Assembly (NCBI RefSeq): GCF_000258425.1
Contig: NC_017461.1
Coordinates: 1 to 64,000 of the forward strand
Reading direction: 5' to 3'
Source: Fervidicoccus fontis Kam940
Lineage (GTDB): Archaea > Thermoproteota > Thermoprotei_A > Sulfolobales > Fervidicoccaceae
DNA length: 64,000 bases
Both the position numbers and the translations under genes were made by a program. Every line of letters begins with the position of its first letter. The stretch's first letter is position 1. Positions 6,730 through 62,836 of the stretch are shown here, piece by piece. The notes below the pieces were generated by a model. That model had not been told where the DNA came from and ran no database searches. It saw only the letters and a list, made by a program, of their open reading frames with translations.

Positions 6730-6931
6730 ATGCTCCCCTATGAGTAATTGAATGTTTTATATTTAATTCTAACCGTTAAGTTTGCAATTCAAATATAATT
6801 GAAAAACTAAGGAATCCGAGGGCTCTATAGATTGCATCGCGAAGCATCCAAAGAAATTCTACAATCTTCTCATTGCCGCTCTCTGGAAAAGATCTCTAAC
6901 CCTCATTGAGGTATGTCCTTAAAAGAACATT

Positions 6932-7711
6932 TTAAAAGAATGCGGAGAGATTCATAAATAGCATGTAAATCGCTACAATAATTATGATTATTGCGAAGAT
7001 TTTGGTAAGCAATCTTTTTGAAACCTTCGATGCGAAGTAAGCACCTATCCACCCTCCGAAAATGCCGCCTAAGATATATGATGCTGAAATAATTAAGTTT
7101 AAATCTCCGCTTATAGCATATCTTATAGCTGTTACCAATCCGAATAATCCTACCGATATCAGGGATGTTCCAACCGCCTGCAATATATTTAAAGCGGCGG
7201 AATAAATTAGTCCCGGCACAATCAAAAAGCCACCTCCAATACCAAAATAGCCTGATGCAAAACCGACCAGGAATCCTATAGATAATAATTTCGCAATTGA
7301 TTCTTCATGTTTTGGTTCTGCTGCCGCGTTAACGCATTTTCTTTTCAGCATGTATATACCAATGATTATCATTAATATAGCAAATAAGAACAAGAGTTTT
7401 TTACCAGGAGTTAAAAGCCCTAATTCAGCACCAATTAATACACCTGCAACTCCTGGAATGCTGAATAAAATTCCTTTCCTAAAATTCACGTTTTTCTTCC
7501 TCGCATGAGGTATCAAATTCAGGAAAGCATTAATGCTTACCGCTAATGCGGTAGTCCCTATTACCATATGCGGATGGTTAAATCCGACGAAATATAAGAG
7601 AAGTGGTATAGCAAGTATTGAACCGCCGCCGCCTATCAAGCCAAGAGAGAATCCTACTATCAACCCGGAAATAATAGAAAGAATTATTTGGATCCCGGTA
7701 GGCTCCAACAT
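6932..7711 (-). CDS. TauE/SafE family membrane transporter
   Basis: A 259-residue protein with about eight hydrophobic segments and the duplicated glycine-rich motif of TauE/SafE exporters: LGLIGGGGSILAIPLLLY near residue 24 and FASGYFGIGGGFLIVPGLI near residue 155. The family moves sulfonates, sulfite or related anions across the cell membrane. It is the last gene of a minus-strand set (YeeE/YedE-like, a hypothetical protein, then this), so a sulfur compound is a reasonable substrate. The start at 7711 is 5 bp downstream of the preceding gene's stop. Confidence 0.88.
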   Translation of the reverse strand: MLEPTGIQIILSIISGLIVGFSLGLIGGGGSILAIPLLLYFVGFNHPHMVIGTTALAVSINAFLNLIPHARKKNVNFRKGILFSIPGVAGVLIGAELGLLTPGKKLLFLFAILMIIIGIYMLKRKCVNAAAEPKHEESIAKLLSIGFLVGFASGYFGIGGGFLIVPGLIYSAALNILQAVGTSLISVGLFGLVTAIRYAISGDLNLIISASYILGGIFGGWIGAYFASKVSKRLLTKIFAIIIIIVAIYMLFMNLSAFF

Positions 7712-7716
7712 ACTCC

Positions 7717-8073
7717 TCAGAACACCACTATGCTATATTCTTCTATTTCCTGACCTGTTTCCGCATCATCTGAAATCGGTTCTATACTGAGCAATTCATC
7801 TTGTTCGGTTGAGTGGTATTTTTTAAGACCAAGAGAACAGGCTTTCACAAATATTCTCATCTCAGCGGCATCGCCGATCCGCCCTTCGAACGGTGATGAT
7901 TCTACCTGTTTTTTGTTTGCGACCTGAATATCCCGCCTCAGAGGCAGCATTTCTATTTTACTAAAGGAATTTTTTAAAGAATTGATTTCAGAATTGAAAG
8001 CTACCATTTCTGCTTGAATGCTACCTTTGCTCGACAGAACCATAGCCAACATCCTTCCCATATTATGTATCAC
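7717..8073 (-). CDS. hypothetical protein between two sulfur transport genes
   Basis: A 118-residue soluble protein that I do not recognise. It has an amphipathic N-terminal half (MIHNMGRMLAMVLSSKG) and an acidic C-terminus (SIEPISDDAETGQEIEEY). No TusA-like Cys-Pro motif or DsrE-like cysteine is present; the one Cys is in VKACSLG. It sits in a likely operon, 30 bp after the YeeE/YedE-like gene and 5 bp before the TauE-like gene, so a role linked to sulfur uptake or its control is possible but unproven. Confidence 0.6.
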   Translation of the reverse strand: MIHNMGRMLAMVLSSKGSIQAEMVAFNSEINSLKNSFSKIEMLPLRRDIQVANKKQVESSPFEGRIGDAAEMRIFVKACSLGLKKYHSTEQDELLSIEPISDDAETGQEIEEYSIVVF

Positions 8074-8103
8074 CGAGGTATAAAAAAAAATAGGTTAAAA
8101 AAC

Positions 8104-9501
8104 TTATCTATATCCAATTTTATTAATTTTCAACCTAAGCATTCCATACAGTACAATCCATGCGCTGAGTAACACCGTAACCATGAAGACAAAGCTTGAT
8201 ACGGCCATCTGTATATTACCGCTCAATATATGTCCTGAAGCGCAACCATTTGCCATTCTTGCCCCGAATAACACCAGGAAAGTGCCTATGAATGAGCCTA
8301 TGGCCCTTTTTGTCTCACTTGGACCAAATCTACGTTCCCATACTTTTGGAACCAGGGGCTTGAATGCCATAAACCTCTTTGATATTAATGTAGCAGATAT
8401 GAGACCGCCAAGGAATGTGCCGAGATCTGAGAGAGGTTCCCAGCCAATTTCGCTAAATGGATTATTTACAGGGACGCCGTTAACCAGGTGCATGCCGCCG
8501 AAGAGCTGGAAGTATAGATTTGAAGCAGCCCACATAGGATTCAACAGATACGATAATTGCGCGCCAATCCAAGAGTATGTTGTAGATTCACCAAATATTT
8601 GATGCAAAATTATCACCGCCACTGCCGTGATCGTAAATTCCGCACCTAAAATCAATATATATCTGGCGTTTTTGATACTGCTTTCATTTGTAATTCTCGT
8701 AATAAAAGGTCTTGCATGCGGATATTTTTCTTTCTCCTCATTTATCAAATCATTAAATTGAATTACGCTCTTGCTTAATCCCAGTATGTGAGCGCCGCAG
8801 GAATCCTTTATCTTTTCTCCTGGATACCTCGGCAATATCAAGAACAAAAGTATTAATACTGTTCCAAAAATAAGCGAGACCTCGAACATTCCTATTTTTG
8901 ATGTTTTACCTAATATGTCAGCCCAGGTAATAGGCCCATAGTTGAGAGTATCCCAGAAAAATGGTTTAGCATAACCGAATATGAGGGACCACGTAAACGC
9001 TCCTAGCAATCCTCCCAATAATGCCCATATAGCATCTCTGCGCCCTTGACCCAACGCAATCCATACCGTCCCTGGAAAATAACCGGCTATTCCAACACCT
9101 ATTCCAAATATTATTCCTCCTATTATTACCCCAGGCACGAAGAAACTTTTGATCCCGAAGTTTGGACTCGGCACTATCAGGTTCAGCGCATAAAGCAAAA
9201 TCGCACCAAAACCTATTGCGAATCCAAAGCAGACCATTAGGAATCGATCCTGGAAAGCCATTACCCTATATAGCGTATCTGGGTCAGAAAAGTTCCACAA
9301 TTCAAGCGGTATAGCGAGTAACATGCCGGCAACGATTCCGAGTAATAGAGGAGCCTTGGTCTCATGCAGGACAATCTGCATGTATATGCCGCCAAAGAGC
9401 ATTAGCAAAGATATTATAAGCAATGTTACTGTTGCTCCTAGAAATATTTTCTCATCTTTTTCCATTTTCTGATACCACAATAAGGAGATCGATGTAGTCA
9501 A
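8104..9501 (-). CDS. YeeE/YedE family (TsuA-like) transporter
   Basis: A 465-residue integral membrane protein with ten or more hydrophobic segments. Family marks are the glycine/cysteine motif MANGCASGHILSG near the C-terminus and GIAGYFPGTVWIALGQGRRDA in the middle; another cysteine lies in KDSCGAHILG. The YeeE/YedE family includes the thiosulfate transporter TsuA, which passes its substrate along conserved cysteines, so uptake of thiosulfate or a similar sulfur species is likely. ATG at 9465 (MEKDEKIFLG) is an alternative start that fits the family better than 9501. It leads a three-gene minus-strand operon. Confidence 0.85.
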   Translation of the reverse strand: MTTSISLLWYQKMEKDEKIFLGATVTLLIISLLMLFGGIYMQIVLHETKAPLLLGIVAGMLLAIPLELWNFSDPDTLYRVMAFQDRFLMVCFGFAIGFGAILLYALNLIVPSPNFGIKSFFVPGVIIGGIIFGIGVGIAGYFPGTVWIALGQGRRDAIWALLGGLLGAFTWSLIFGYAKPFFWDTLNYGPITWADILGKTSKIGMFEVSLIFGTVLILLFLILPRYPGEKIKDSCGAHILGLSKSVIQFNDLINEEKEKYPHARPFITRITNESSIKNARYILILGAEFTITAVAVIILHQIFGESTTYSWIGAQLSYLLNPMWAASNLYFQLFGGMHLVNGVPVNNPFSEIGWEPLSDLGTFLGGLISATLISKRFMAFKPLVPKVWERRFGPSETKRAIGSFIGTFLVLFGARMANGCASGHILSGNIQMAVSSFVFMVTVLLSAWIVLYGMLRLKINKIGYR

Positions 9502-10639
9502 ATAAAAAAATATCGCTAATATTTATAATGTCTAGATAGCATATCCGCTACCTCCAAATGCGCCATCACTATTCGCACCATTAACCAAGAACGTGTAGCT
9601 TACTGGGTATTTGAATCCTTGCAGATCCCATTTAGTATTATGATCTGCTTGGTATGAAAATTATTACGCAAGTAGCCTTTATGCTTGGGCATAAGGATAG
9701 CATGTAAGTTAAAAGGGTATAATGCACACTCGTATATATAATATATTGATAATAGACGAATACATAATTAATACACAACCATATGTGCTATTTTCCATAA
9801 AGTAATTCTTTAAAACCCAGTACCGTGCATCTGAGTATAAAGGTTTGGGTGGAGTAGGTTATGAGCTGGCATAAAGGAGAGAGATCCATAGTCTGGGTAG
9901 ATGAAGTGAGGAAATGAGACATATTCTTCGTCGGAGGCAAAAATGCCAACCTAGGCGAGATGATTGCAATAGGATACAAGCAATCCGGGATTCGCTGTCA
10001 CGCCACACGTCTTCAAATATATTTTCAATTCTAATTGACTGTGAAGGAAGCTTAGTGAGAGAAGTCTGCTGCGGTGAGCTTTAAAGTTCCGAAGTAGCTC
10101 TCGAGCGCTCTCTTCATTCCCTCGAGCCTGCTCCTTTTCCTCGCCTCTGCATGCACAGCAAACAACTTGATCCCTCCAGCTGCATGTTTTTTGAACAGAT
10201 TGGCAGAAGAATTCTTCGTTATTGAAACCTGGGTTGAAAAAAGCAAACGATTTGGGATTTGGAAACTAGCTACTCTCTCCGGATAATTAGGCCATCTCAT
10301 TCTGATCTCACGGTATTAATGCTGCTTGTTTAGTTAGAGAGGTGAGAGAACGAACGTGAGCGAAGCGTTATTTATCAGGTCCTGCTTGAGAATATGAACG
10401 CTACCAGACGCTATCCGTAGAAGCGCTCGTAGCTCATAACAAAAGTTCTGAGCGGCCAGAAAAAGCAGAAATGCTCGTTCTTTCCATTAACGCTTTTGTT
10501 CAATTCAATTCTTTCATCTGAAAAGCCGATCTGAAGTTGCAATTGTCCCCATCAAGCAGAACATTCAACATCTCAGAATGCAAACTTTTTATATTATTAA
10601 CTTCAATAGATCATTTAGATATGAAGAGGTAATCGATCT
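9502..10639. other. decayed intergenic region
   Basis: Over 1.1 kb without an intact recognisable gene. It contains the PEP synthase fragment described separately (9861-10020). A minus-strand open frame of 82 codons at 10052-10300 matches nothing I know. The rest is AT-rich with scattered stops in all frames. A possible TATA-like run lies near 10590-10600, ahead of the zinc-ribbon gene. Confidence 0.4.
9861..10020 (+). pseudogene. ppsA: N-terminal fragment of phosphoenolpyruvate synthase
   Basis: The plus strand reads SIVWVDEVRK, a TGA, then DIFFVGGKNANLGEMI, and after a frame change NPGFAVTPHVF. This is the start of PEP synthase (pyruvate, water dikinase), whose N-terminus has the pattern W-DEV-K-D---VGGKNA-LGEM followed by PPGFAVT. 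Only about 50 codons remain, with one stop and one shift, and nothing of the catalytic His domain follows. It is a dead gene end, presumably left by a rearrangement. Confidence 0.8.
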
Positions 10640-10855
10640 ATGATCAAGTGCCCAGTATGTGGACATGAAGGTAATGAGGGAGAGTTCAAGCTGTTTAAGG
10701 AGCCGTGGAAGTTCAGGTTCTACGATGTTAAAAGGCTGGAGTGCCCAAAGTGTCACGCTATATTCAACTATTACAGCGGAACTTCTCCAAAAGGGAGGAA
10801 GTCAGAGTTTGTGATCAAGGTGAAGCCGAGGGAAGTCAAGAGGGTTAAAAAGTAA
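10640..10855 (+). CDS. small zinc-ribbon protein
   Basis: A 71-residue basic protein with two CxxC knuckles, CPVCGHEG at residues 4-11 and CPKCHAIF near residue 35, so it should bind one zinc ion. The C-terminus is Lys/Arg-rich (KPREVKRVKK), as in small archaeal nucleic-acid-binding zinc-ribbon proteins. The function is unknown. Its own promoter is likely, because the neighbours are pseudogenes and the downstream gene is convergent. Confidence 0.75.
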   Translation: MIKCPVCGHEGNEGEFKLFKEPWKFRFYDVKRLECPKCHAIFNYYSGTSPKGRKSEFVIKVKPREVKRVKK

Positions 10856-10894
10856 AGCCGTCCTTCTCTTTGCTATATCAAAACTGAAGAAAAG

Positions 10895-11830
10895 CTATTT
10901 CTTCAATTTTTCAAAAATCATCTTCATATAGTATGGATTTTCAGTGTGAATTGGTACAATTTCTTTAGGCCTCAGAATACCTATTAAATCAGAAAACTGA
11001 TGGGGGTAGTAGTGACCAGAGAGGCGCAACCTATATACTTCAATGCCAAGCATTTCGAACCACTTTGCCAATACCGATTCTTCCACCTCTTTATAGCCTT
11101 CATTAGGCTCAGGATCTGTTAAGACAGCGACAGCTCTCGGAATCTTCAATTCCTTCCCCCATAGCTTCATCCTTCTCAAAATTTCGAGCAAATTAATTGG
11201 TTCAACTATTAGAATATAATCTCTTGGGTTCTGGAGGATGTCATATTCGATGCTTACTGCATTAAGAAGAATTGGTGGCGGAGCTTTTCCTTCAATCGCC
11301 ATGTATATATCCTCAGTCGTAGAATTGTACCTATCGCGGATTTGCTCGACCATCCAGAAAATCCTTTCAGAACCTACTACTACTTTCCTTCCGAACATTC
11401 TAGCAAAATCCAATAAAAAGCTGAATAGCTCAAAGTCCAAAGGGTCTATAAATACGACAATTAAGTCATAAGCAATGAATATTTTGTTGAAGGCATCTCT
11501 TAACATATTGACAGTGATCGGAAAGCTCTCAAGTTTAGAGCTGAAGTTTGTCCCCTCAATAAGAGCTAAGTCAACCCTTTCAATGCCGAGCTTTTCAATG
11601 AAGCAACGAAGATCGCAGTGGAATATAGTTGAGGGAGATTCTATTCTTAGATCTCCATTGTAGAAAATGTTCGTATCTTTGCCAAAGTAAATGTAGGCAG
11701 ATGAGTGAAAAGCGCTATGGTGAACAGGTATAAGGTAGTCTATGCAATATCCAACCGAAAATTTTTTGGTAATGAGTTGAGTATATATATTATAGAGTAT
11801 GTGATAGCATAAACAGACCGAATTCAGTTT
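10895..11830 (-). pseudogene. N-terminally truncated beta-CASP metallo-beta-lactamase (RNase J-like)
   Basis: The open frame runs from 11830 with no usable early start. It reads KFSVGYCIDYLIPVHHSAFH, IFYNGDLRIESPS and ALIEGTNF, then a beta-CASP domain and a C-terminal SGHYYPHQFSDLIGILRPKEIVPIHTENP-type segment. This is the back two thirds of an RNase J/CPSF-like nuclease. The N-terminal metal-binding HxHxDH motif is absent because the frame closes at a TAA (11831-11833), and I find no matching sequence upstream. A start inside (GTG/ATG near 11506) would give only 203 residues. It is most likely dead, although a short beta-CASP protein could still be made. Confidence 0.65.
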
Positions 11831-12295
11831 TTAAAAATCTACTGAGCTTTACTTGACTACGCCTCTTTAATGCGAGAGACAGTAGTTCAATCCTTATTTC
11901 TGTTTTATAATTATAAACATTCAGAAACTCTTACAACATGCAAACTCATTCAAGATATGAAATATAATTTTATGAATTCTCAAGAATACTTGGTGGAGCA
12001 GTTATCAAATTTAAAATAAAACTGAGGAATATGTGGAGATTTCTTGCCCTTTAGGACGGGAAGATAACGGATGTTAAAGCACACTATTTTGATAAAAACT
12101 AATTAATTCATACTCAGGTTAAATGATAGAATTTGCTTTTAGTTTGGTGCTATGTTTTGAAAATAAGTTCAAGCTATATAGGTTGCAAGCTTGCCATAGA
12201 AATTGAAGGCATTCGGAATGATATTTACGAATGATGAAGGAAGGTCATGGATATTTTGGCTTGAGGACCGTGGAAGATCGCATCCTCATATAATC
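11831..12295. other. AT-rich region without recognised genes
   Basis: No reading frame of note is present on either strand. The sequence is AT-rich and separates the truncated RNase J-like gene from the VapBC pair. The missing 5' end of the RNase J-like gene should lie here if the gene were whole, but no HxHxDH-like translation is visible. Confidence 0.4.
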
Positions 12296-12703
12296 TTAAA
12301 CTGATGGGATAATTGCTTTTACTCCAACGTCTTCAGAGGCTTTTGCCTGCTTTTTATCGAGAGTTATCAATGGAAGATTTTTCTCTGCAGCTAGTGCTAT
12401 GTATAGAGCATCATAAACAGTTGTGCCAGTCTTCAGCGCTATTTCAAATCCTTTCGAGATGTATTTGCCCTCGGGCTCTATTAATACGTTGATACCGATC
12501 ATTGAGAGCAGTATCTCTCGCAACCTTACAGCTTGGTCTATGCTAATAGTTTTTCTAACCGAATAATCTCTCCATATGGTGTTCAATACTTCTTTCACGG
12601 CCAGATCTATAGTTGTACATAATTTTACAAATACTACCAGTCTTTCCCACCCAGGTTCTTTTCTAATGAATGCAGCTAGTACAGAAGCATCAATGACTTT
12701 CAC
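12296..12703 (-). CDS. vapC: VapC-family PIN-domain toxin
   Basis: A 135-residue PIN-domain ribonuclease. The acidic residues of the active site are visible: D5 in VIDASVLAAF, E39-like in VKEVLNTIW, D98-like in TVYDALYIALA and D116-like in ITLDKK. VapC toxins cut specific RNAs when freed from VapB. The gene overlaps the 3' end of the vapB gene by 14 bp, the usual order and coupling for the module. It lies about 90 bp from the distal end of CRISPR array 2. Confidence 0.9.
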   Translation of the reverse strand: MKVIDASVLAAFIRKEPGWERLVVFVKLCTTIDLAVKEVLNTIWRDYSVRKTISIDQAVRLREILLSMIGINVLIEPEGKYISKGFEIALKTGTTVYDALYIALAAEKNLPLITLDKKQAKASEDVGVKAIIPSV

Positions 12704-13012: not shown

Positions 13013-14144
13013 CTTTCAATTCTATCTGAGAGATTCCTAGTAGAATTAAAGTATGTTGATAGGCTGAACAAGATCTTTCAATTCTATCTGAGAGATTCAA
13101 AGCGGGTTAAGAGTTTTCAAAGAAGACGAGTTCCACTTTCAATTCTATCTGAGAGATTCACATAACTTTAATTCAGAAACGCTAAAGCTCTTGATTGGAA
13201 ACAGAGACTTTCAATTCTATCTGAGAGATTCAGTGGGCTTACAAGACATTTTTAGTCTAAGAGAGAGCTTTCAATTCTATCTGAGAGATTCAAATCAAGC
13301 AATTATGTGAAAGCGGCAAGCTGGTCAGCTTTCAATTCTATCTGAGAGATTCAAATAGCTGATGCATTAGGGTTCTTCATAACTATCACACTTTCAATTC
13401 TATCTGAGAGATTCATGTCGATATACTTATTTTTTCGCCTTTTGCCTTTTTCTTTCAATTCTATCTGAGAGATTCACGTTAAGCGTGGCAGCACTTGAAG
13501 CAATATTCACATCTTTCAATTCTATCTGAGAGATTCTGTGGGCTGGTAAATACTTCGAAGCCGTGCTGCCGACTTTCAATTCTATCTGAGAGATTCAAGT
13601 CAAGCCCTGTCCCAGCTATTTTTGTTGAGGCGCTTTCAATTCTATCTGAGAGATTCAACGCTGGCTTTAATGAATTGAATTTCTTCACCTCTTTCAATTC
13701 TATCTGAGAGATTCATGGTGAAGTTGTTGAAGAACAGCCCGGTTTTATAATCTTTCAATTCTATCTGAGAGATTCCGGAAGAAATAGCACAGCAAGTTAA
13801 GCTCATACTTGACTTTCAATTCTATCTGAGAGATTCAACCCAAACCCCAAACCAAGTAAAAGATCCTAGAGCCTTTCAATTCTATCTGAGAGATTCGTAG
13901 TTCAAATTAGCGTTGATCAAATTATGGTGCCGGACTTTCAATTCTATCTGAGAGATTCCAATGCGTTTGAATTTACTGAAATGCATTTGGTAATACTTTC
14001 AATTCTATCTGAGAGATTCACAGCATGGGATCCTTCAGCCTATCCAAGTTGCTCTCACCTTTCAATTCTATCTGAGAGATTCTACAAAATAATGCTAAAG
14101 TATTTGAAGCAGTTACAAAGCTTTCAATTCTATCTGAGAGATTC
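13013..14144 (-). CRISPR. CRISPR array 2 (CTC-type repeats)
   Basis: Nineteen 24-nt repeats (CTTTCAATTCTATCT, GAG, AGATTC on this strand) start at 13013, 13075, 13136, 13208, 13268, 13329, 13391, 13452, 13513, 13573, 13633, 13691, 13752, 13813, 13873, 13935, 13996, 14059 and 14121. They are separated by 18 spacers, mostly 34-38 nt, with one of 48 nt (13160-13207). The AT-rich leader follows 14144, so transcription is leftward. The repeat equals that of array 1. The leader-repeat junction reads TGCA then GAATCT, as in the other arrays. The trailer end (13013) shows no repeat decay. Confidence 0.98.
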
Positions 14145-14568
14145 TGCACGATTTTTTGAGCTCATTTGTATAATTTATAATTTGGTATTATAATAAAAAC
14201 TTTTCGGTCCAATTGCAAAAATTGCAAGATCTGATATATTTTTCCCCATTTTTTCTAGGAAATTGTAATAAAAAATATATAATAGAAATATGTTTAATTT
14301 ATCCTTTAGTTTAAAATCAGCTTTGTTCCCAACTATGCGAAATTTCATCCATAAAATTCATTCACAAATTTTTATTTATAAAGGATTTAAATACTTCCCA
14401 AAATAAAAAGGGAAAAAATAATGAATTTTAGATTAAGGTTTGGTGCTTTTCGGCTCTAGCATTTTAAAAGCAGAATTTTATGGTTTCTAAATGATATTAA
14501 AGATTTTAGCGAGAGAGTATAAAATTTCAGTAAAATATTATATTTATTCAAAATGAAGAAGAATATAG
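14145..14568 (-). promoter_or_regulatory. leader of CRISPR array 2 and shared 5' region of the CARF-PIN gene
   Basis: About 420 bp of strongly AT-rich DNA between the array and a divergent CARF-PIN gene. At 14386-14420 it keeps the block TTTATAAAGGATTTAAATAC followed by TTCCC and GGGAA arms, which is nearly the same as 56426-56466 in the leader of array 3. The rest has diverged strongly from the leaders of arrays 3, 4 and the mini-array. It must hold the pre-crRNA promoter near its array end and the promoter of the CARF-PIN gene at its other end. Confidence 0.75.
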
Positions 14569-40944: not shown

Positions 40945-41283
40945 GCAATATTTCCCGAGCTATTTCGGGAAGTATTTAAACCCCTTATAAATGCAAAATT
41001 CAGACAAAATTCTATATATAATTTCAACATGTTATTCCATCAAAGCAGGAGACATTATAAATGAATAACTTATTTGTTAAATTATTATATACTTTTAATT
41101 ATAATTTCCCAGAAATTTCTGGGAATTGATGGTCCTTTCGCGATCTTTTCGAGCGAGAGCGAAAAGCTTTTATTGATAATACCGCACAAGTTCATGAATT
41201 AAGCGGAAAATTTGTAAGGGCAAAAAGCTTTTATTGATAATACGCCATTATAAATAGTAAGAATGAACGCTACAAATAGTGCA
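40945..41283 (+). promoter_or_regulatory. leader of the one-spacer mini-array
   Basis: This is closely similar to the leaders of arrays 3 and 4 over their full 272-bp shared length, with a handful of base changes (for example AAAATTCT for AAAATGCT). It has one 61-bp insertion, so that AAAGCTTTTATTGATAATA occurs twice (about 41164-41182 and 41225-41243). Both palindromes (TTCCCGA..TCGGGAA near 40968 and TTCCCAGAAA-TTTCTGGGAA at 41106-41125) are kept. A TATA-like CATTATAAAT at 41247-41256 would place the transcript start just before the first repeat. Confidence 0.9.
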
Positions 41284-41368
41284 GAATCTACTAGATAGAA
41301 TTGAAAGTTTTTTTCGATCCATCTTCCGGATTTCTGTATACCACGAATCTACTAGATAGAATTGAAAG
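41284..41368 (+). CRISPR. mini-CRISPR: two ACT-type repeats and one spacer
   Basis: There are two identical 24-nt repeats, at 41284-41307 and 41345-41368, reading GAATCT, ACT, AGATAGAATTGAAAG. They enclose one 37-nt spacer (41308-41344). The triplet ACT is found in no other array here. The array is preceded by a complete leader and ends 31 bp before the likely ATG of nrdD. No repeat decay is visible, so Cas6 could still cut it. Confidence 0.95.
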
Positions 41369-52782: not shown

Positions 52783-53564
52783 TCTATCAGCTTTATCTCA
52801 TTCTCCTCGATAGCGTATGCGCAGATATCTCTATCCGAATATACCCTGAGCTTCTTCTGCGTGAAAACGCTGCCGTCGTATGCGAAAGCCACCTTAATTG
52901 TCGGCATCCCCATCGACGTGGGACCTGACATTTTCCTCCAATCGTAATGCTCGACGATTTCAACCACTCCTCCATCAAAACTCTCTACCTTGAGACCAAT
53001 CTGTGTAAGGGGAACAGTGTAATCGGTCACGAATTCCTTATTGCATATTTCTTCAGCTACTCCATAAGAGACCTTTGTTGGAGAAATGAGAGATTCTTTG
53101 TCTCCCAATCTTACCATGGAGAAAGATGCAGCTATAACTTCCTCCTTCCATCGGTGTCCCAGATTCCTCGAGGCAGCATCCTCATCGAACAGATATATGA
53201 CGGAAAGATCTGACTCTCCGCTGACATAGAGCCTCTGGTAGGCGAAAGCATCGCTCTTAAGTTCTCTTTCATTCTTCTTGTAGAACCACATTTTCGTCAC
53301 AGTGCTATAAGGAAGCAGCGATAGACCGCTTCTGAAATACACTCCTCTGAGCGAAGAAGACAGCAACTTCGGCATGTAGTCTTCGCTCGATTCTGGAAAG
53401 TTCTTCAATTTTGCCAATGGGTAGGAAAGTGCCCCAATCAGCGTAGTTGGTGGCGGTAACCTGAAAGATGTCCTGCTCTTTGTAGCCGTAATTATTCCGA
53501 AATTCACCGCTGAGGATACGGGCAAAAAATTAACTTTTAGAAAAAAGGGTTTATTCTGAGTCAT
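52776..53564 (-). CDS. cas5a: Cas5a Cascade subunit
   Basis: A 262-residue RAMP protein of the Cas5 family with the N-terminal FRLPPPTTLIGALSYPLAKL signature (the PPP-T--GAL motif) near residue 34. It caps the 5' handle of the crRNA in the type I-A complex. It overlaps cas7 by 4 bp and cas8a by 7 bp. Confidence 0.92.
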   Translation of the reverse strand: MTQNKPFFLKVNFLPVSSAVNFGIITATKSRTSFRLPPPTTLIGALSYPLAKLKNFPESSEDYMPKLLSSSLRGVYFRSGLSLLPYSTVTKMWFYKKNERELKSDAFAYQRLYVSGESDLSVIYLFDEDAASRNLGHRWKEEVIAASFSMVRLGDKESLISPTKVSYGVAEEICNKEFVTDYTVPLTQIGLKVESFDGGVVEIVEHYDWRKMSGPTSMGMPTIKVAFAYDGSVFTQKKLRVYSDRDICAYAIEENEIKLIEW

Positions 53565-54670
53565 GGACCCTCTGCACCTAAACGACTCAACACGATTCTC
53601 GTTAATTCTTTGAAGAACTCCTCGGGCGTTTCTGTTGACTTCACCCCTTCGACTTTTTCTCCGTAGACTATCACATCCTTCCAGAACTCCAGTTCAAGAT
53701 TTTTCATCAAGTCGGCAGTTTTTTCCACCTTCTTAATGGTTTCTTCTATGTATCTCTTTTTCTGGGGGGGCACGGGTGCTATGGGAACAGGGTGACTTAC
53801 TACTCCAACTAGGCTCTCTACACTCAATATTGGATTGAACCTGCTCCTCTTCGCTCCGAACTGCTGCGCTCCAAATGTAAGTGATAAGGCTAAGAGCGCC
53901 GTTTTTACTCTCCTGAGCTTTTCAGCATTATCTACAACATCCTCTTTTCTTATCATGCTCGTTTTTCCGATATTCGAAACATCAAGGAAGAATGAGATCC
54001 CATATACAGTGGAGGCTACTTCAACGTAATAGATCATCTGCGACTTTCTCTTTCTCTCCTCTTTCTCTGTTTTCTCTTTTATTTCCTCTTCTGTTTTCTC
54101 TTCTATTTCCTCTTTAGAAGCTATCTGTCTGGTGTGCATTTGAGCTTCTATCACCGATTCAGCTACAGCATCTTCTATGGGGGTCGCATACCCAACATAA
54201 AAGAGGCTGGTCCTTCTGATTGGAAGTTCTTCGGCAAGCATGAAACCTCCAATATCGGCGACAAGGCTTTCCTTGATGGCGACCCTTTCAAACTCATGTT
54301 GGAAATCTTCCACAGTTTTTTTGCTTCCTTTATTTGATTTCGCTTGTTCGAGGATTTCTTTCAGAGAGTCAGTTATGTGTTTTTTATCGGAGAACTTTAT
54401 CATCTCGTTCCTCATTGCCCATTGGTCGATCGGTGGAGGATTGATCTTTTCCTTTTCGTATATCAGTTTTGCCGCTTCGACTAAGTTCGATTGAAATGCA
54501 TGTCCTAGACTTTCTCCGCTGATTGCTGGAACATATATGACTCTGTACCCCTCCGACGTCTTCATTATATATGGAACTCGCCGATGCTTTGAAACGTTTC
54601 CAATGGTCTCTGTCATATTCAGTGCCTCAGCGTTTGCAATAACTCTTCCTGAAATGTATATGTATACCAT
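53561..54670 (-). CDS. cas7a: Cas7a (Csa2) Cascade backbone subunit
   Basis: A 369-residue RAMP protein: YISGRVIANAEALNMTETIG, PAISGESLGHAFQSNLVEAA and VASTVYGISFFLDVSNIGKT are typical of Csa2. Six or more copies coat the crRNA spacer. Residues about 186-210 form a very charged Glu/Lys insert (KEEIEEKTEEEIKEKTEKEE) coded by an imperfect tandem repeat of about 27 bp at 54058-54115; related proteins are shorter there. Its ATG overlaps the stop of csa5 by one base. Confidence 0.93.
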   Translation of the reverse strand: MVYIYISGRVIANAEALNMTETIGNVSKHRRVPYIMKTSEGYRVIYVPAISGESLGHAFQSNLVEAAKLIYEKEKINPPPIDQWAMRNEMIKFSDKKHITDSLKEILEQAKSNKGSKKTVEDFQHEFERVAIKESLVADIGGFMLAEELPIRRTSLFYVGYATPIEDAVAESVIEAQMHTRQIASKEEIEEKTEEEIKEKTEKEERKRKSQMIYYVEVASTVYGISFFLDVSNIGKTSMIRKEDVVDNAEKLRRVKTALLALSLTFGAQQFGAKRSRFNPILSVESLVGVVSHPVPIAPVPPQKKRYIEETIKKVEKTADLMKNLELEFWKDVIVYGEKVEGVKSTETPEEFFKELTRIVLSRLGAEGP

Positions 54671-55002
54671 TACGCAACAACCCCCTCTGCTTTATTTTCT
54701 TCGCTTTCTTTCTCATGAGTTAGCGAGAGAGTTGCCAAAATGCTGCCAGCGATTTTTCCCTTCTTTTCATCCATCAGGAGCCTGATGGTGATTTCCACGT
54801 CCCTCTGTGGAGGAAGTCTATTGGGATCTTCGCTCGCTATCATCCTGAGGGCTCTCCACAGAGATTCTACTCTCAGTTCAGGTTTCTGAGAATCAGCAAT
54901 GACATCTATAGTGTTGTAGGCCTTATTTTCTATAAGAAGGTTCAATGCCGTCGCAACCCTCCTGAGGGCCCACCACTCTGAAGGTTCGAGCTTTTCGGCC
55001 AT
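54670..55002 (-). CDS. csa5: Csa5 (Cas11a) small subunit
   Basis: About 110 residues, helical, beginning MAEKLEPSEWWALRRVATAL and containing VESLWRALRMIASEDPNRLP, matching the Csa5 small subunit that stabilises R-loops in type I-A. ATG 55002 is preferred over 55023: a TATA-like AAGTTTAAATAC (rc of 55035-55046) would start transcription near 55015. It is the first gene of the interference operon. Confidence 0.85.
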   Translation of the reverse strand: MAEKLEPSEWWALRRVATALNLLIENKAYNTIDVIADSQKPELRVESLWRALRMIASEDPNRLPPQRDVEITIRLLMDEKKGKIAGSILATLSLTHEKESEENKAEGVVA

Positions 55003-55075
55003 ATTTATCACTATAATAATCAAACGAAGAAGTTGTATTTAAACTTTTGTTTTTTAGATATATTAATTTTAAAAG

Positions 55076-55132: not shown

Positions 55133-56194
55133 CTTTCAATTCTATCTAATAGATTCTTTTTCAAAATGATCAATTCTTTTTCGAAAAGTCATTCTTTCAA
55201 TTCTATCTGGCAGATTCAATATCCAATCCTTACCATGCCCTTCATAATATGTACTTTCAATTCTATCTAACAGATTCTTGAACAGTATGGGGGGGATCCT
55301 CGCGAGACCAATACTTTCAATTCTATCTAACAGATTCCCCGCAGGCAGGCGATAGAAAACATTGTTAATGCGCTCTTTCAATTCTATCTAACAGATTCTA
55401 ACCGGGCTGGTTTGTGCAGTATTCGACGGGATCGCTTTCAATTCTATCTAACAGATTCGCAATTTGCTAATTGCCACAAGAATAAAACAACTACTCTTTC
55501 AATTCTATCTAACAGATTCAGCAGTCGGGCCACGTTAATCCGGGGCTAATTTCCCTTTCTTTCAATTCTATCTAACAGATTCACTCTCAATGTCAGCGTT
55601 ACTAACTCGCAGCTAAATGCTTTCAATTCTATCTAACAGATTCTTGGTAGGCGCAATTACGTTTATTAGCCAACTGAACGCCTTTCAATTCTATCTAACA
55701 GATTCAGCTAAGCAACCGCAACAACAACAACAAAGCACACTTGCCTTTCAATTCTATCTAACAGATTCACTACCTTTGGCAGGAGTTATACGAGAAGAAA
55801 CTAACTTTCAATTCTATCTAACAGATTCAAAAACAATCGAAGAGGACATAGAAAACTTAAGAGAACTTTCAATTCTATCTAACAGATTCGGATCCCCAGC
55901 GTTGACATATACGAAACGAACTCGTCCTTTCAATTCTATCTAACAGATTCCGAAGACAAAAGTAAGCAAGATGAAATAGCGGATTTCTTTCAATTCTATC
56001 TAACAGATTCAATTTATCGCTGGCCAATACTCTTAAAGATCATGGCTTCTTTCAATTCTATCTAACAGATTCAAGCGTTATATTTGAGCTTACTATAGTA
56101 GCGTTCACATCTTTCAATTCTATCTAACAGATTCCAGAGGGTAAGATAAACGAGGGGCTGATCGCCCTATCTTTCAATTCTATCTAACAGATTC
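55133..56194 (-). CRISPR. CRISPR array 3 (GTT-type repeats)
   Basis: Eighteen repeats start at 55133, 55194, 55254, 55314, 55375, 55435, 55496, 55559, 55620, 55682, 55745, 55805, 55866, 55927, 55987, 56049, 56111 and 56171; in the sense strand each is GAATCT, GTT, AGATAGAATTGAAAG. The two leader-distal repeats have loop changes (ATT at 55133, GCC at 55194). The leader is at the right, so transcription is leftward. Counted from the leader, spacers 4-9 (55644-55986) are identical to spacers 4-9 of array 4. A partial inverted repeat (GATAGAATTG, 55117-55126) next to the last repeat can pair with it. Confidence 0.98.
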
Positions 56195-56580
56195 TGCACT
56201 ATTTGTAGCGTTCATTCTTATTATTTATAATGGCGTATTATCAATAAAAGCTTTTCGCCCTCGCTCGAAAAAATCGCGAAAGGACCATCAATTCCCAGAA
56301 ATTTCTGGGAAATTATAATTAAAAGTATATAATAATTTAACAAATAAGTTATTCATTTATAATGCCCTCTGCTTTGATGGAATAACATGTTGAAATTATA
56401 TATAGCATTTTGTCTGAATTTTGCATTTATAAGGGGTTTAAATACTTCCCGAAATAGCTCGGGAAAAAATTACGAATCGCGAGACAGCTTCAGAAAAGCA
56501 TGATTTTTCACAGGTATTTCCGGGATTTTTTTACTATCTCAACTTTCATACAAAAAAATTTGCAATTCTAAATAATGTTT
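56195..56580 (-). promoter_or_regulatory. leader of array 3 and csa1 promoter region
   Basis: Positions 56195-56466 match the array 4 leader (61496-61767) without a difference, in inverted orientation. It contains two palindromes, TTCCCAGAAA-TTTCTGGGAA (56292-56311) and TTCCCGA...TCGGGAA (56446-56465). The second follows TTTATAAGGGGTTTAAATAC (56426-56445) and is well placed as an operator of the csa1 operon. The array-side end reads TTATTTATAATGG, a TATA for the pre-crRNA in the other direction. Confidence 0.9.
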
Positions 56581-56582
56581 CG

Positions 56583-57482
56583 ATGATGCAGATGCTCTTT
56601 TCTCTGGTGAAGGATGTTCCCAAGAGGCTGTATTGGCTCAGGAGCAATGATCCTGTTCCCGAGGACTTGAGAGGATGGAGCTATCATACCTACCCGGTCA
56701 GGCCCAGAGCCTATTTCGGATTGGGGGTGAGCGAAGTAGCGTACAAGTACTGTGAAACCTTCAGAGATCTGTGGATGCGGAGGAAGGAGTATGTCAGGGG
56801 GGAAGTGCTCGAGAGCTCTCCTCTTTACATGGGAAAACTCATCCATTCGCTCATGAACTATGCTTTCAGGGATGCTTCAGAAATAGTGAGCAGAAATCTC
56901 GGTCCTCTGGAATCCATTAGAAGGGCTCAGGAGCTGTCCAGAAAAAGGGCCTCTGAGCTCACGAAGAGCTATTATAGGAAGGCTATGGAATTCTACATGA
57001 CTATGGTGCTCTCGGCGATCAGCACACTCTGGATACAGCAATCTCTGACTAACGATCCTCTCTCTTACATATCGATCAAGACCGAATTCGTCATCGATGG
57101 TACGCCTGTAGGTTTGAGCAACACTCTGAGGGTCGATGCATATCACGAAGGAGGAGTGATAATCGAGTACAAGCTGGGAAATCCAGATCCTTTGCTGACT
57201 GAGAGGCATTCTGTCGGACTCGCAGGATATGCTCTCGCCATCGAGAGCTCTCTCGACATCCCAATAGACTACGGCGCAATCGTCTATATCAGCGAACTTT
57301 CCAGGAGACCATCGATAAAGGTCTTTCCCGTTTACATCTCATCCCTATATCGCAAAAAGTTCTTGGAGAACAGGGACGAAGCGATAGAGGTTCTCATGAG
57401 GGCAACACCGCCTCCGAGAAGCGGCAACTGCTATCAGTACTGCCCCTTCTTCAAGGCGTGCAACGGAGGGGAGAGGAGTTGA
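56583..57482 (+). CDS. csa1: Csa1 (Cas4-like) adaptation protein
   Basis: 299 residues. The Csa1 family is related to Cas4 RecB-like nucleases. Seen are YHTYPVRPRAYFGLGVSEVA, the catalytic-type stretch VIIEYKLGNPDP (residues about 196-207) and a C-terminal iron-sulfur cysteine cluster CYQYCPFFKAC. It heads the adaptation operon csa1-cas1-cas2-cas4, the Sulfolobus gene order, and helps choose PAM-flanked spacers. Confidence 0.9.
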   Translation: MMQMLFSLVKDVPKRLYWLRSNDPVPEDLRGWSYHTYPVRPRAYFGLGVSEVAYKYCETFRDLWMRRKEYVRGEVLESSPLYMGKLIHSLMNYAFRDASEIVSRNLGPLESIRRAQELSRKRASELTKSYYRKAMEFYMTMVLSAISTLWIQQSLTNDPLSYISIKTEFVIDGTPVGLSNTLRVDAYHEGGVIIEYKLGNPDPLLTERHSVGLAGYALAIESSLDIPIDYGAIVYISELSRRPSIKVFPVYISSLYRKKFLENRDEAIEVLMRATPPPRSGNCYQYCPFFKACNGGERS

Positions 57483-58462
57483 GGCTGCTTGTTATAACCG
57501 GCTATGGGAAAAGACTCTCTGTCGAAGGAAAGGTCTTCAAGATTGAAGATAGGAATAAGAGCTCTTCGAAGGTAAATCCAGCAGATATTGAGAGCATAGT
57601 AATTGAATCGAGTGGAGTGAGCATAACTTCCGCAGCAATAGAGCTCGCCTCGATGGCCGGAATACCCATATTTATAATCAGAGGAAGGGGATCCCCCACC
57701 GTGATATCTCCGATATACTCCGTGAAGACCGCTGAGACCAGAAGGAAACAGTACTCTGCTACGACGGGAAAATCCGGCTGCACCCTCGCCAAGAGCCTCG
57801 TCAGATCTAAGATATCGAACCAGGCTGAGTGCCTGAGAAATCTGAACCGATACTTCAACGATGAAGATGTGAGGAAGGAGGTGGAAAAGCTCAGGGAAAA
57901 CTCGAAGAGGGCGCAGGAGCTTCAGTGCTCGGAAAATTGGAGTTCTCAACTGAGACAGATCGAATCGAGCGCCGCGAGGGCTTACTGGGGGAGCTTGGCA
58001 GTATTCCTCCCAGAATCTATCGGCTTCGATGGAAGAGATGTGGATTCGGGAGATGCGTTCAATTGCTCTCTGAACTACATCTATGCTCTCCTATACAGTG
58101 AATGTTTCAAGAAGCTATCGATAGCTGGTCTTGATCCTTACGGAGGGATATATCACGTCGATAAGGCGGGAAGGATGAGCTTAGTCTACGACTTCTCCGA
58201 TCCGGTTAAGCCATTTCTCGATTACAGCCTAACTAAGGAGAGACAACTCCTCCTCAACATCAAGGTCTCAGATGGAGTCCTGGATGAAGATGCCAGAAAG
58301 AATATAATTCTTCTGTACGATGGGGCGAGGAAATCTAAAGTCAGAATCTACGACAAGACGAGCGTAACTTTTCAGGAAGCCCTCACATCTTTTGCCTTCA
58401 ATCTAGCTGAGAGCTTCAGAAAAAGCGAGGAGGCCAGGATGGATATGTCGATGAAGTGGTGA
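57479..58462 (+). CDS. cas1: Cas1 integrase
   Basis: About 327 residues. The N-terminal beta domain reads LVITGYGKRLSVEG, followed by ADIESIVIESSGVSITSAAI and IPIFIIRGRG. The C-terminal helical domain has the catalytic-type residues in IESSAARAYWGSL (Glu), DPYGGIYHV (His) and LVYDFSDPVKP (Asp). It joins new spacers at the leader-repeat border with Cas2. TTG 57479, overlapping the csa1 stop, matches family starts; GTG 57458 is also open. Confidence 0.94.
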   Translation: MRLLVITGYGKRLSVEGKVFKIEDRNKSSSKVNPADIESIVIESSGVSITSAAIELASMAGIPIFIIRGRGSPTVISPIYSVKTAETRRKQYSATTGKSGCTLAKSLVRSKISNQAECLRNLNRYFNDEDVRKEVEKLRENSKRAQELQCSENWSSQLRQIESSAARAYWGSLAVFLPESIGFDGRDVDSGDAFNCSLNYIYALLYSECFKKLSIAGLDPYGGIYHVDKAGRMSLVYDFSDPVKPFLDYSLTKERQLLLNIKVSDGVLDEDARKNIILLYDGARKSKVRIYDKTSVTFQEALTSFAFNLAESFRKSEEARMDMSMKW

Positions 58463-58465
58463 TCT

Positions 58466-58756
58466 TTGGGCTTCTATATAATCGTCTATGACATAGGAGA
58501 TCAGGGCAAGAGACAGAGGGTCGTGGAGATCCTTGAAAAGTGGGGGCTGAGAAGAATACAGAGGAGCGCGTTCGTGGGATACGTGCAGGAGGGAAGAGCG
58601 AAGGATATCGCGAGAGAGATAGAGATGACGATCGATTTGGAGAAAGATGTGGTCCACATAGTCCAAATAGAGAGGAAAGAATGGAATCGGGCTATTGTGG
58701 TGGGAACGAGCAAATGGAGCGCCGGATCTCCCGAAGGATCGGTGGTCTTGAGATGA
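58466..58756 (+). CDS. cas2: Cas2
   Basis: A 96-residue ferredoxin-fold protein starting GFYIIVYDIGDQGKRQRV, with the Cas2 Asp in YDI, and RRIQRSAFVGYVQEG. It bridges Cas1 dimers in the integration complex. The start is TTG at 58466, 3 bp after cas1. The tail (TSKWSAGSPEGSVVLR) overlaps the cas4 start by 4 bp. Confidence 0.93.
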   Translation: MGFYIIVYDIGDQGKRQRVVEILEKWGLRRIQRSAFVGYVQEGRAKDIAREIEMTIDLEKDVVHIVQIERKEWNRAIVVGTSKWSAGSPEGSVVLR

Positions 58757-59334
58757 AAGAGCTGAAGGGCAGCATAAGCTTGAGCCTAATAAGGAACCTA
58801 CCATATTGCGAGAGAATGGTCTGGTTCAAGTTAAACTCAGATATAGAGGAACCTCCAACCCCCTCGATGATTCTATCGAGCGAGAGGCACAGGGATCTCA
58901 AGAGAATCGCGGAGAGCCTCATGCTACCTCAGCCCATGCAATTCAACAAGAAGCTATGCCATCCTCAAATTCCCGTCTGCGGTTCGCCCGACATCATTTC
59001 TGGGGAAGAGAGGAAGATCATAGTCGAGTACAAGCATTTTTCCAGGGAGAGAGGCGACTTCCAAGACTTCAGAGCCCAGCTGCTGACATACGGCTGGTTA
59101 GTTCAAGAAGTGGAGGGGAGAGTCTGGAAGCTAGTCCTCATGGTGGGAAGAGAAGTTGTCTGGGAGCAGGAATACAGTTACGAACTTCACATCAGCGCGA
59201 GGCATCTCGTAGAAAGACTCCTGAAGATTTTGGACTCTCCTACACCTCCAAGCGCGAGCTATGGGGGAAAGTGCTCATACTGCTTCTTCAAGTCAGTATG
59301 CTCCTCTTCCAACCAGCCTGCCGAAATTTTATGA
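58753..59334 (+). CDS. cas4: Cas4 exonuclease
   Basis: 193 residues with the RecB-like core CGSPDII...KIIVEYKHFS (residues about 75-97), QLLTYGWLVQE and a four-Cys iron-sulfur site made by PYCERMVWF near the N-terminus and CSYCFFKSVC near the end. It trims pre-spacers and sets their orientation. It is the last gene of the adaptation operon and converges with the broken csa3 (6-bp overlap). Confidence 0.93.
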   Translation: MKELKGSISLSLIRNLPYCERMVWFKLNSDIEEPPTPSMILSSERHRDLKRIAESLMLPQPMQFNKKLCHPQIPVCGSPDIISGEERKIIVEYKHFSRERGDFQDFRAQLLTYGWLVQEVEGRVWKLVLMVGREVVWEQEYSYELHISARHLVERLLKILDSPTPPSASYGGKCSYCFFKSVCSSSNQPAEIL

Positions 59335-60028
59335 CTTCTTTTCCAATAATTCTCTACTTTCTTCGCTGAGGAGGGCGGCTGCCTCTCCCCAGGGAGTGAG
59401 CTTCAGCGGGCTCCTCCCCTTCCTCTCTACCAGTCCGAGCTTTTTCAGGTAAGATATCCTGTTCACCACGGTCTTCTCTCCGCAGCCAGTAGCCTTAGCG
59501 ATGTCCTTTACGCTCATGTTTCCCGAGTTCAACACGGCTCGGAGAAGCTGGGAGTCCTTCGTGCCTAGTCTGCTCATGAGGAATTGGATGAAACCCTCCG
59601 GTATCTCCAGGTCCGAATCTGTCCCCCTCTATGCTCGTCTCAACGGAGAAAGATCTCTTCATGCTGAACAGGGCAAGCATCAGCATGACCGTGATCCCCC
59701 TGAGCCCTCCACCAGCTTCAACGACAATTCTCCTGTCTCCGCAGACCTCCCTTATCTTCTGTGCTATCGCTGGGATGCCCTTCCACGGTTCAGCGGGATC
59801 GATCCTGAGGGTCTGCATGTTCTCTTCCTTCACCCCAGCCTTGCTGGCGTAGAGCTTGAACTCCTTCACCGCCTTCTCTGATGCGGGGATGGAGGGACCG
59901 GAGATCACGAGGATCCTATCCGCCGTCTTTACCCCTCTATCGGCAATCCTCCTCAGTCCTATATCCGAATGGAACCCTAGAGTGACGATGAGACAAACCT
60001 CCAATTGAACCACCTTTATCCCGCGCAC
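59329..60028 (-). pseudogene. csa3: Csa3 regulator, frameshifted at a G5 run
   Basis: The CARF frame starts EVCLIVTLGFHSDIGLRRIA, includes the ligand motif VVEAGGGLRGITVMLMLALF and runs to SVETSIEG. The wHTH frame resumes SDLEIPEGFIQFLMSRLGTK and continues NMSVKDIAKATGCGEKTVVN to 59329. They meet at a run of five G (plus strand CCCCC near 59622-59627), where one base difference would restore about 232 residues. Sitting beside csa1-cas4, this would be the adaptation regulator (Csa3a-like). It may be mutated, a sequencing error, or phase-variable. Confidence 0.85.
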
Positions 60029-60073
60029 CGTGCATATTTCATATGGCTCATTATTAATGATTTGCCTTCCGTA

Positions 60074-61393
60074 CTAAAGAGTTTCCCTAACTATCATGTC
60101 CAAGAACGCTAAGTCGTCAGCCCTTTCGGGACCTTTCAACTTGAGATTGGGTATACCTGTACCCAGCTCGCCGATCCTCCCGAGCTCGAAGGAAAAGGTC
60201 CTTTCAGCCATGCTCAGCTTGAACCCCTTGCACTGGAAAGCTAGGTTCAGAAAGAAGCTGTAGAGCTCCTCCGCGCAGAATTTCCTTCCCTCTTCGAGAA
60301 ATGGAGCTCTCATCAGAACTTCATCTCCCCTCAAGACGTTGCTCACTGCTAGGCTCAGCCTGACGTCTGAGGTGAGGAAGCAGACCTTCTTCCTCTCGTC
60401 GAGCAACTTCTTCAGGGAGTTGATTATCTCAACGTCTCCCTTCAGCATCCTATCCATAGTGGGAATGGTCTTATTCAGGGCTGTGGCTCTGATCACCCCA
60501 AGCAGCTTCTTCCTCCCGAGAGAGGTCTCCTTCTCCTCCAGCGCCTGGGGGAGCAGCTCTGCCCAGATTGGCTTCATTATCTCCACATACTTGTACTGGG
60601 ACTTCAGATAGTCGAAGATCCTACCATGGATGAAGACGTTGGTGTCGGGGACTATGATCCCCCCTTCGCTTACGCACTTAGAGAGTTTAGAGTAGACCTC
60701 CTCCTTGTTCTCCAGCTCCAGAGAGCTCGAGAGAACCTCCTCGAAGGTTTCCAAATCTCCAGAGCCAAAGGAGCTGTAGCTCTTCAGGATGAGGCTTTCC
60801 TCTGTGAACTCGAACTCGGCCCTTCCACCGCATGCTTCTATGGAGAACTCGTTAGCTCCAGACTGAGAGTACAGGTTCACGATAGCTTGTATTGTTTCTG
60901 GAGCTACCTTCTGTAAATGCTCCTGAGGGTCAGAGATGTGAACTTCCTTGAGCTTCGATGCATCTAATTTCAAGAGATTGAGCTCTGGATAGAGCTCGAT
61001 GAACTTGAAGGACCACTTCGGCATATAGCCGAAGAACTTGTACCCATATTTCTTCTCCTCCTCTATGTAGAGGTACCTCGCCCTGCAGCTCCTGGAGACT
61101 AGGCATTTCTGGAGGAGGACAGAAGCATATATCTTCCTACCAGGTGTAATGTCCAGGATCGTATCTTCCGGTATCTCGAGACGGGCCCAGGACCTCGGGT
61201 CTCTCCCCAGAACCCTCAAGCTCAGCTTCGCTCCCAGAGCTCGGGAGATCTTCTCGATGATTTCCAGCATCTCTTCCGGTTCCTGCTCCGATGTCAAAAT
61301 GATCTCCTCGAACTTCTCTCCAGTCGCGATCTCGTATCCGAGCGTCCCCAGGAGAACCTGCCTGCTGGGAGAATAGGGTATGATGAGCTTCAT
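60074..61393 (-). CDS. CARF-PIN fusion protein (paralogue 2)
   Basis: About 439 residues and colinear with 14569-15900. The CARF half has LIIPYSPSRQVLLGTLGYE and DITPGRKIYASVLLQKCL. The middle SIEACGGRAEFEFTEESL block is shared with the paralogue. The PIN half has IIVPDTNVFIHGRIFDYL and VCFLTSDVRLSLAVSNVL. ATG 61393 matches the paralogue's start. It is divergent from the array 4 leader, the same arrangement as paralogue 1 with array 2. The likely role is a cyclic-oligoadenylate-activated nuclease serving the type III system. Confidence 0.82.
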   Translation of the reverse strand: MKLIIPYSPSRQVLLGTLGYEIATGEKFEEIILTSEQEPEEMLEIIEKISRALGAKLSLRVLGRDPRSWARLEIPEDTILDITPGRKIYASVLLQKCLVSRSCRARYLYIEEEKKYGYKFFGYMPKWSFKFIELYPELNLLKLDASKLKEVHISDPQEHLQKVAPETIQAIVNLYSQSGANEFSIEACGGRAEFEFTEESLILKSYSSFGSGDLETFEEVLSSSLELENKEEVYSKLSKCVSEGGIIVPDTNVFIHGRIFDYLKSQYKYVEIMKPIWAELLPQALEEKETSLGRKKLLGVIRATALNKTIPTMDRMLKGDVEIINSLKKLLDERKKVCFLTSDVRLSLAVSNVLRGDEVLMRAPFLEEGRKFCAEELYSFFLNLAFQCKGFKLSMAERTFSFELGRIGELGTGIPNLKLKGPERADDLAFLDMIVRETL

Positions 61394-61405
61394 TGAAAGT
61401 ACCAA

Positions 61406-61767
61406 TATAGTTCTAGTAAAGCCAAATAGTTAAAGTTATATTTCAGAAATTCTTTTTTGAGCCGCGCAAAAGAGTGTGTTTCGCGATTCGCAATATTTCC
61501 CGAGCTATTTCGGGAAGTATTTAAACCCCTTATAAATGCAAAATTCAGACAAAATGCTATATATAATTTCAACATGTTATTCCATCAAAGCAGAGGGCAT
61601 TATAAATGAATAACTTATTTGTTAAATTATTATATACTTTTAATTATAATTTCCCAGAAATTTCTGGGAATTGATGGTCCTTTCGCGATTTTTTCGAGCG
61701 AGGGCGAAAAGCTTTTATTGATAATACGCCATTATAAATAATAAGAATGAACGCTACAAATAGTGCA
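61406..61767 (+). promoter_or_regulatory. leader of CRISPR array 4
   Basis: Positions 61496-61767 are identical to the array 3 leader in inverted orientation. They include TTCCCGA..TCGGGAA (61497-61516), TTCCCAGAAA-TTTCTGGGAA (61651-61670) and the TATA-like CATTATAAATAATAAG about 30 bp before the first repeat. The segment 61406-61495 is unlike the matching flank of array 3 and should hold the promoter of the divergent CARF-PIN gene. Confidence 0.9.
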
Positions 61768-62836
61768 GAATCTGTTAGATAGAATTGAAAGTGAGGATGA
61801 CTACATTGTAGTGCCTCCACAGAGACAGCGAATCTGTTAGATAGAATTGAAAGTGTCAACTTCAAGCTGAATTACTTGCTGCTGATCGCTGAATCTGTTA
61901 GATAGAATTGAAAGTTTGTGCCACTTTTTGCGATCGGCGCGATTGTGCTAAATGAATCTGTTAGATAGAATTGAAAGAAATCCGCTATTTCATCTTGCTT
62001 ACTTTTGTCTTCGGAATCTGTTAGATAGAATTGAAAGGACGAGTTCGTTTCGTATATGTCAACGCTGGGGATCCGAATCTGTTAGATAGAATTGAAAGTT
62101 CTCTTAAGTTTTCTATGTCCTCTTCGATTGTTTTTGAATCTGTTAGATAGAATTGAAAGTTAGTTTCTTCTCGTATAACTCCTGCCAAAGGTAGTGAATC
62201 TGTTAGATAGAATTGAAAGGCAAGTGTGCTTTGTTGTTGTTGTTGCGGTTGCTTAGCTGAATCTGTTAGATAGAATTGAAAGGCGTTCAGTTGGCTAATA
62301 AACGTAATTGCGCCTACCAAGAATCTGTTAGATAGAATTGAAAGCTCCAATGCCTGGGGCACTAGAGTTATTATTATTATGAATCTGTTAGATAGAATTG
62401 AAAGTAATAACGAGGCCTTCGTTCTCGAGCTGTTTCAAATGAATCTGTTAGATAGAATTGAAAGACTCCTAGCCCAATATCAATTAATGCAAGTTCTGTA
62501 GAGAATCTGTTAGATAGAATTGAAAGTATAACATGCATCTTATCACCTAAGCTATCATCTTCCTGGAATCTGTTAGATAGAATTGAAAGGCTTTAGATAT
62601 CTCGTGTTCCTTCAGATAGTATTTAAGAATCTGTTAGATAGAATTGAAAGCTTGTTATTTTTCCTTGGCTAACGAGACTGTCTAAGTGAATCTGTTAGAT
62701 AGAATTGAAAGTTAGACACGGCGAGACGCAGATAATACCCTGGACCGGAGAATCTGTTAGATAGAATTGAAAGTATCGTGCATAACGAGTTTAAAGAGTG
62801 AGTACCAATCGAGAATCTGTTAGATAGAATTGAAAA
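61768..62836 (+). CRISPR. CRISPR array 4 (GTT-type repeats)
   Basis: Eighteen repeats (GAATCT, GTT, AGATAGAATTGAAAG) start at 61768, 61830, 61891, 61954, 62014, 62075, 62136, 62196, 62259, 62321, 62381, 62441, 62503, 62566, 62627, 62688, 62750 and 62813, with 17 spacers of 35-39 nt. The leader is at the left. Spacers 4-9 (61978-62320) equal those of array 3; spacers 1-3 and 10-17 do not. The last repeat carries an extra A before its final G. The ring-nuclease-like gene begins 57 bp later. Confidence 0.98.

Follow-up and report, generated by a model that had tools for sequence, protein, structure and literature searches.

The stretch analysed here (the window) comprises the first 64,000 nucleotides of the genome of Fervidicoccus fontis Kam940, which is assembled as a single contig of 1,319,206 bp with a completeness of 99.9%. 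Towards its end lie two CRISPR arrays, named here arrays 3 and 4, which face away from each other around a set of adaptation genes, and type I-A interference genes adjoin array 3. The features of this region, with PADLOC assignments, are the following.

53561-54670: Cas7a (cas7/csa2), PADLOC E=4e-71
54670-55023: Cas11a, PADLOC E=5e-6
55133-56194, minus strand: CRISPR array 3, 18 repeats and 17 spacers
55620-56010, minus strand: shared block of array 3, spacers 4-9 with flanking repeats, equal to the array 4 copy
56195-56466, minus strand: leader of array 3, 272 bp, identical to the leader of array 4
56583-57482, plus strand: csa1 (Cas4/Csa1 family, Cas4a), PADLOC PDLC02084, E=1.6e-62
57458-58462, plus strand: cas1, PADLOC PDLC02064, E=4.9e-63
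58466-58756, plus strand: cas2, PADLOC PDLC02075, E=7.5e-26
58753-59334, plus strand: cas4, PADLOC PDLC01250, E=6.4e-24
59340-60028, minus strand: csa3 (CARF plus winged-helix regulator), PADLOC PDLC01044, E=2e-37, frameshifted near 59627
60074-61405, minus strand: CARF-PIN protein gene, PADLOC PDLC01068, E=1.1e-135
61496-61767, plus strand: leader of array 4, 272 bp, identical to the leader of array 3
61768-62836, plus strand: CRISPR array 4, 18 repeats and 17 spacers, the final repeat ending in A
61954-62344, plus strand: shared block of array 4, spacers 4-9 with flanking repeats

The initial annotation had read csa1-cas1-cas2-cas4-csa3-CARF-PIN between the arrays; PADLOC agrees with this order, with the correction that csa3 is frameshifted in this sequence. 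An extra G near 59627 gives GGGGG, versus GGGG in a sister-strain contig (G007:C63), and reflects either a true mutation or a homopolymer sequencing error. The cas1 gene is the only one found in the genome. With csa1-cas1-cas2-cas4 between two oppositely oriented arrays, and homologous leaders on both, arrays 3 and 4 are an ordinary outward-facing type I-A pair, served by one adaptation module. Their coordinates, their opposite strands and the 17 spacers in each hold to the base as first annotated. The equal number of spacers is unremarkable, since arrays with the same repeat tend toward comparable lengths according to a survey (PMC12814883). Array 3 ends leader-distally in degenerate repeats (GAATCTATTAG..., GAATCTGCCAG...), and the outer edge of its leader is a palindrome (TTCCCGA-GCTATT-TCGGGAA).

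Recomparison of the two arrays reproduced both identities that had been claimed, 272 bp for the leaders and 391 bp for spacers 4-9 and their repeats, while spacers 1-3 and 10-17 are all different. As inverted arms they measure 396 and 301 nt, the 396-nt arm (I1) consisting of the 391 bp plus edge matches near chance level. In local alignments the six shared spacers (36-39 nt) score 36-39, with a maximum of 15 for shuffled spacers, and a chance match is rejected on the length, order and score of the six. Independent acquisition in both arrays is not credible either, given the identity and the order of six spacers. The distal spacers, the terminal degenerate repeat and the outer flank are separate for each array, without homology past the last repeat, which rules out an old simple duplication, as had been argued before. 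The same ordered spacers are found in two arrays between different flanking spacers, the pattern of block copying between arrays, and the six ordered matches together with array ends of their own indicate that spacers 4-9 were copied between two pre-existing arrays. It is a real and clear case, of a kind already known.

What these spacers target was searched in several collections. Those of arrays 3 and 4 gave only chance-level matches to phage records (E 1-4), those of array 4 gave no match to plasmids and no self-target outside the repeats, and neither exact 23-24 nt pieces of spacers 4, 5, 6, 7 and 9 nor one conserved target motif were found in IMG/VR. Some spacers overlap without being identical: array 4 spacer 1 (61792-61829), array 2 spacer 9, spacers 8 of arrays 3 and 4, and array 1 spacer 12. 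Such overlaps, between different arrays or with the sister strain, reach local scores of 19-23 against the shuffled maximum of 15, and their sequences suggest shared targets in unsequenced viruses.

Among the seven genomes of the same family (G001-G007), only the MAG G007 matched the locus, and G001-G006 gave no match. Its matching contigs are about 99% identical to this genome and are probably sister-strain DNA. The MAG itself is assigned to another genus, and the presence in it of these near-identical contigs (C12, C57, C63 and C302; L024, L035 and L036) represents either binning contamination or recent transfer. On contig C57, which covers only the leader-distal end of array 3, spacer 17 is the same and spacer 16 is different. 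This end is therefore old and its inner neighbour has already been turned over, which argues against a recent duplication of the complete array; what remains is that a block inside the array or close to the leader was copied. For leader 4, the sister strain differs at 1 of 89 bp inside the leader (its outer 89 bp) and at 10 of 89 in the adjoining intergenic DNA. Such slow change within the leader could reflect constraint; constraint alone does not force two leaders to be identical, since twin leaders of relatives can differ by roughly 9-38%.

Three more arrays or remnants are relevant to the history of these leaders.

1-794, plus strand: array 1, 14 repeats, the first at 1319183-1319206 (before the sequence start), twin of array 2
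13013-14405, minus strand: array 2 with its leader (14145-14405), 19 repeats
40951-41368, plus strand: third leader copy with a two-repeat mini-array (repeats at 41284 and 41345), about 97% identical in the matching parts, with an extra stretch

Leaders 1 and 2, whose pair spans the origin, are identical over 271 bp and about 64-68% identical to leaders 3 and 4; a comparison of arrays 1 and 2 found no common spacers. Past the 272 bp, leaders 3 and 4 show no similarity above background apart from a weak, diverged homology of about 25 bp, and the third leader copy (40951-41283) shares more of this residual outer homology with array 3. The residual homology among leaders 3, 4 and that of the mini-array at 41284 suggests, as a reading of the alignments, older leaders that would have been homogenised only within the tract. 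A second remnant leader lies outside the window, close to a diverged repeat, at genome positions 73542-73686, where 80 bp match at 86% identity.

Arrays 1 and 2 lie in surroundings unlike those of the sister strain, where an array with 23 or more repeats (L036, G007:C302, 7430-8799) ends in the repeat that here stands alone at 15967. The window lacks this array; upstream of the lone repeat it has array 2, leader 2 and a second CARF-PIN gene (plus strand). A second csa3 adjoins leader 1. Judged from its alignment with G007:C302, the segment 14145-15990 of the window is a rearrangement, with a breakpoint that would lie in or near an array. The roughly 12 kb separating arrays 1 and 2 (795-12703) are low in G+C, contain genes for sulphur transport, TauE/SafE and PIN-domain proteins, and may be an inserted island.

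How general this architecture is was surveyed in up to 20 kb around Cas1 hits in other genomes of the class, giving 60 regions that are not all independent, some coming from one genome and some lying on short contigs. Screened automatically, 18 of these 60 cas1 regions contain a pair of inverted arrays whose repeats are similar (L037, L038, L041, L043-L046, L063, L068, L073, L077, L082, L085-L088, L090 and L091), and in 17 of the 60 the inward flanks, that is, the leaders, are alike as well, L082 being the exception among the pairs. In six pairs, all from family f11, the leaders match at 97.8% or more over about 200-230 bp. For the pair L085 the figure is 100% over 218 bp. Spacer sharing was looked for in all 18 pairs and none was found, leaving arrays 3 and 4 as the only case. 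Further searches of genome contigs with Csa1 and with the leader pattern, and of viral contigs with CARF-PIN, retrieved no relatives.

In a nearest-neighbour table of leaders, the twins are each other's best match in 15 of 18 pairs, one of the three non-mutual pairs (L085) being a parsing error for which L085_right is to be disregarded in the leader distances. Most twins also cluster by genome in the leader tree, and leaders of different genomes differ widely. In the comparison behind this tree, some relatives have a low first bin, their array ends having been set slightly, by a few bases, out of place. Twin leaders are thus observed to resemble each other within a genome, across relatives, and their being nearest to each other points to a concerted evolution, as far as leader sequences can tell, although for any single pair a recent duplication in that lineage could formally also account for the resemblance. 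Since the twin architecture is widespread among relatives, both arrays of the Kam940 pair are probably old.

New CRISPR spacers are inserted next to the leader. When the three newest spacers are removed from each array, leader, repeat and spacers 4-9 abut, so that a single tract explains both identities. We therefore regard non-reciprocal homologous recombination (gene conversion), most likely of one leader-anchored tract and followed by the gain of three spacers per array, as the probable origin of the shared block. One tract of about 660 bp, comprising the leader, the first repeat and spacers 4-9, which would then have been the newest, may have been copied from array to array, its inner end falling within the 24-bp repeat that precedes spacer 10, the first of the recipient's older spacers. 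Three new spacers would afterwards have been added at the leader of each array, and the trigger could perhaps have been gaps that Cas1-Cas2 integration leaves where leader and repeat meet. The single event, its direction and its trigger are what we infer from the pattern. For the direction, the repeat loops read GTT except towards the old end of array 3, where they are GCC or GCT, one or two base changes that would hint at array 4 as the donor. The identical leaders of the pair 1/2 in the same genome speak for such a leader-anchored process.

Recombination between inverted copies, proposed in the initial annotation, is therefore supported, and what changes is its form: the exchange of a middle patch is not the simplest one, as leader and spacers 4-9 were once contiguous and one tract accounts for both. 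Such an in-register patch, in which spacers 1-3 were already distinct when 4-9 were copied by exchange in the repeats at both ends, the leaders having been homogenised separately, is a less likely alternative that we still take seriously. It predicts a block at equal index in both arrays, as found, while the one-tract reading needs exactly three later gains in each array, roughly 1 in 6 by a rough estimate. Moreover, the pair 1/2 and six or more relatives have homogenised leaders without any spacers in common, so the two identities could have arisen in separate events. On the other hand, a patch requires two events and two exchange points inside 24-bp repeats flanked by unrelated spacers, whereas a leader-anchored tract has 272 bp of homology on one side.

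An assembly artefact, in which the 391-bp and 272-bp stretches were mis-joined, so that one array in reality lacks spacers 4-9 or the 5-6 kb middle is misoriented, appears very improbable. These repeats may be longer than the reads of older technology, the sister-strain contigs break within them, and the homopolymer difference in csa3 looks like a sequencing error. Nevertheless, a duplicate of 4-9 needs the junctions 3-4 and 9-10 in both arrays, and collapse errors make none; the genome is a single, nearly complete contig, and misorientation of the middle segment would leave the duplication in place. The orientation of that segment in the assembly is uncertain if reads were shorter than about 400 bases.

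The earlier proposal of a flip switch, in which recombination at the inverted arrays would regularly invert the adaptation module with a regulatory effect, finds no support and is highly improbable. Long inverted identities make inversion physically possible, CRISPR loci have been credited with large-scale chromosomal recombination in Thermotoga (PMC5637354), and the pair 1/2 displays a rearrangement near an array. However, 116 bp separate leader 3 from csa1 (56467-56582) and 90 bp separate leader 4 from CARF-PIN (61406-61495), presumably containing their promoters, and these upstream regions lie between the leaders and move with the invertible segment. Because this DNA travels along and the leaders are identical, a flip at the leaders would alter no pairing of gene and promoter and would leave expression unchanged as far as can be read from the DNA, and one through spacers 4-9 would merely exchange leader-proximal spacers between arrays. 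Least probable of all is a recent inverted duplication of the whole array with later replacement of both ends, which would explain the common repeat, leader and block, against which stand the differing distal spacers, terminal repeats and outer flanks and a twin layout so widespread that both arrays are probably old.

CRISPR memory is usually taken to be acquired at the leader and to disappear by deletion, and the copied block means that it can also pass between arrays within one cell. If the copying was leader-anchored, it would account for twin leaders staying identical, would make shared spacers unsafe as proof of common array ancestry, and could be tested in Sulfolobus, where paired identical leaders and genetics are available. 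The homogenisation of leaders as a general pattern is a more interesting lead than the spacer copying. Our tentative proposal is that the twin leaders of Thermoproteota evolve in concert through gene conversion anchored at the leader, perhaps set off by spacer-integration intermediates, with a tract that sometimes enters the array. If true, conversion would provide the twin array with a backup of the newest spacers, and both arrays would stay equally competent for acquisition, arrays 3 and 4 being the fossil of one such event. In a literature search of incomplete coverage we found no paper on gene conversion of CRISPR leaders.

Several known systems share parts of this arrangement. Arrays 1 and 2 have, like 3 and 4, identical leaders, inverse orientation and homologues of csa3 and CARF-PIN beside the leaders, but they lack shared spacers and face each other instead of away. 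The inverted type I-A loci of Sulfolobus islandicus REY15A carry identical leaders of 206 bp (PMC9456107), although this is another organism and the available part of that paper describes no shared spacer block. Spacer overlap was reported in 11.9% of same-repeat arrays of one genome, in the accessible portion of a survey that includes sharing like that seen here but does not describe leader-linked copying (PMC12814883). Spacer copying is also described, in a review, for S. solfataricus P1/P2, where blocks of spacers and repeats become duplicated inside a locus and can be exchanged by recombination among the loci of one cell (PMC4390879, section 4.4); unlike these, arrays 3 and 4 are inverted twins with identical leaders and carry the shared block at equal index.
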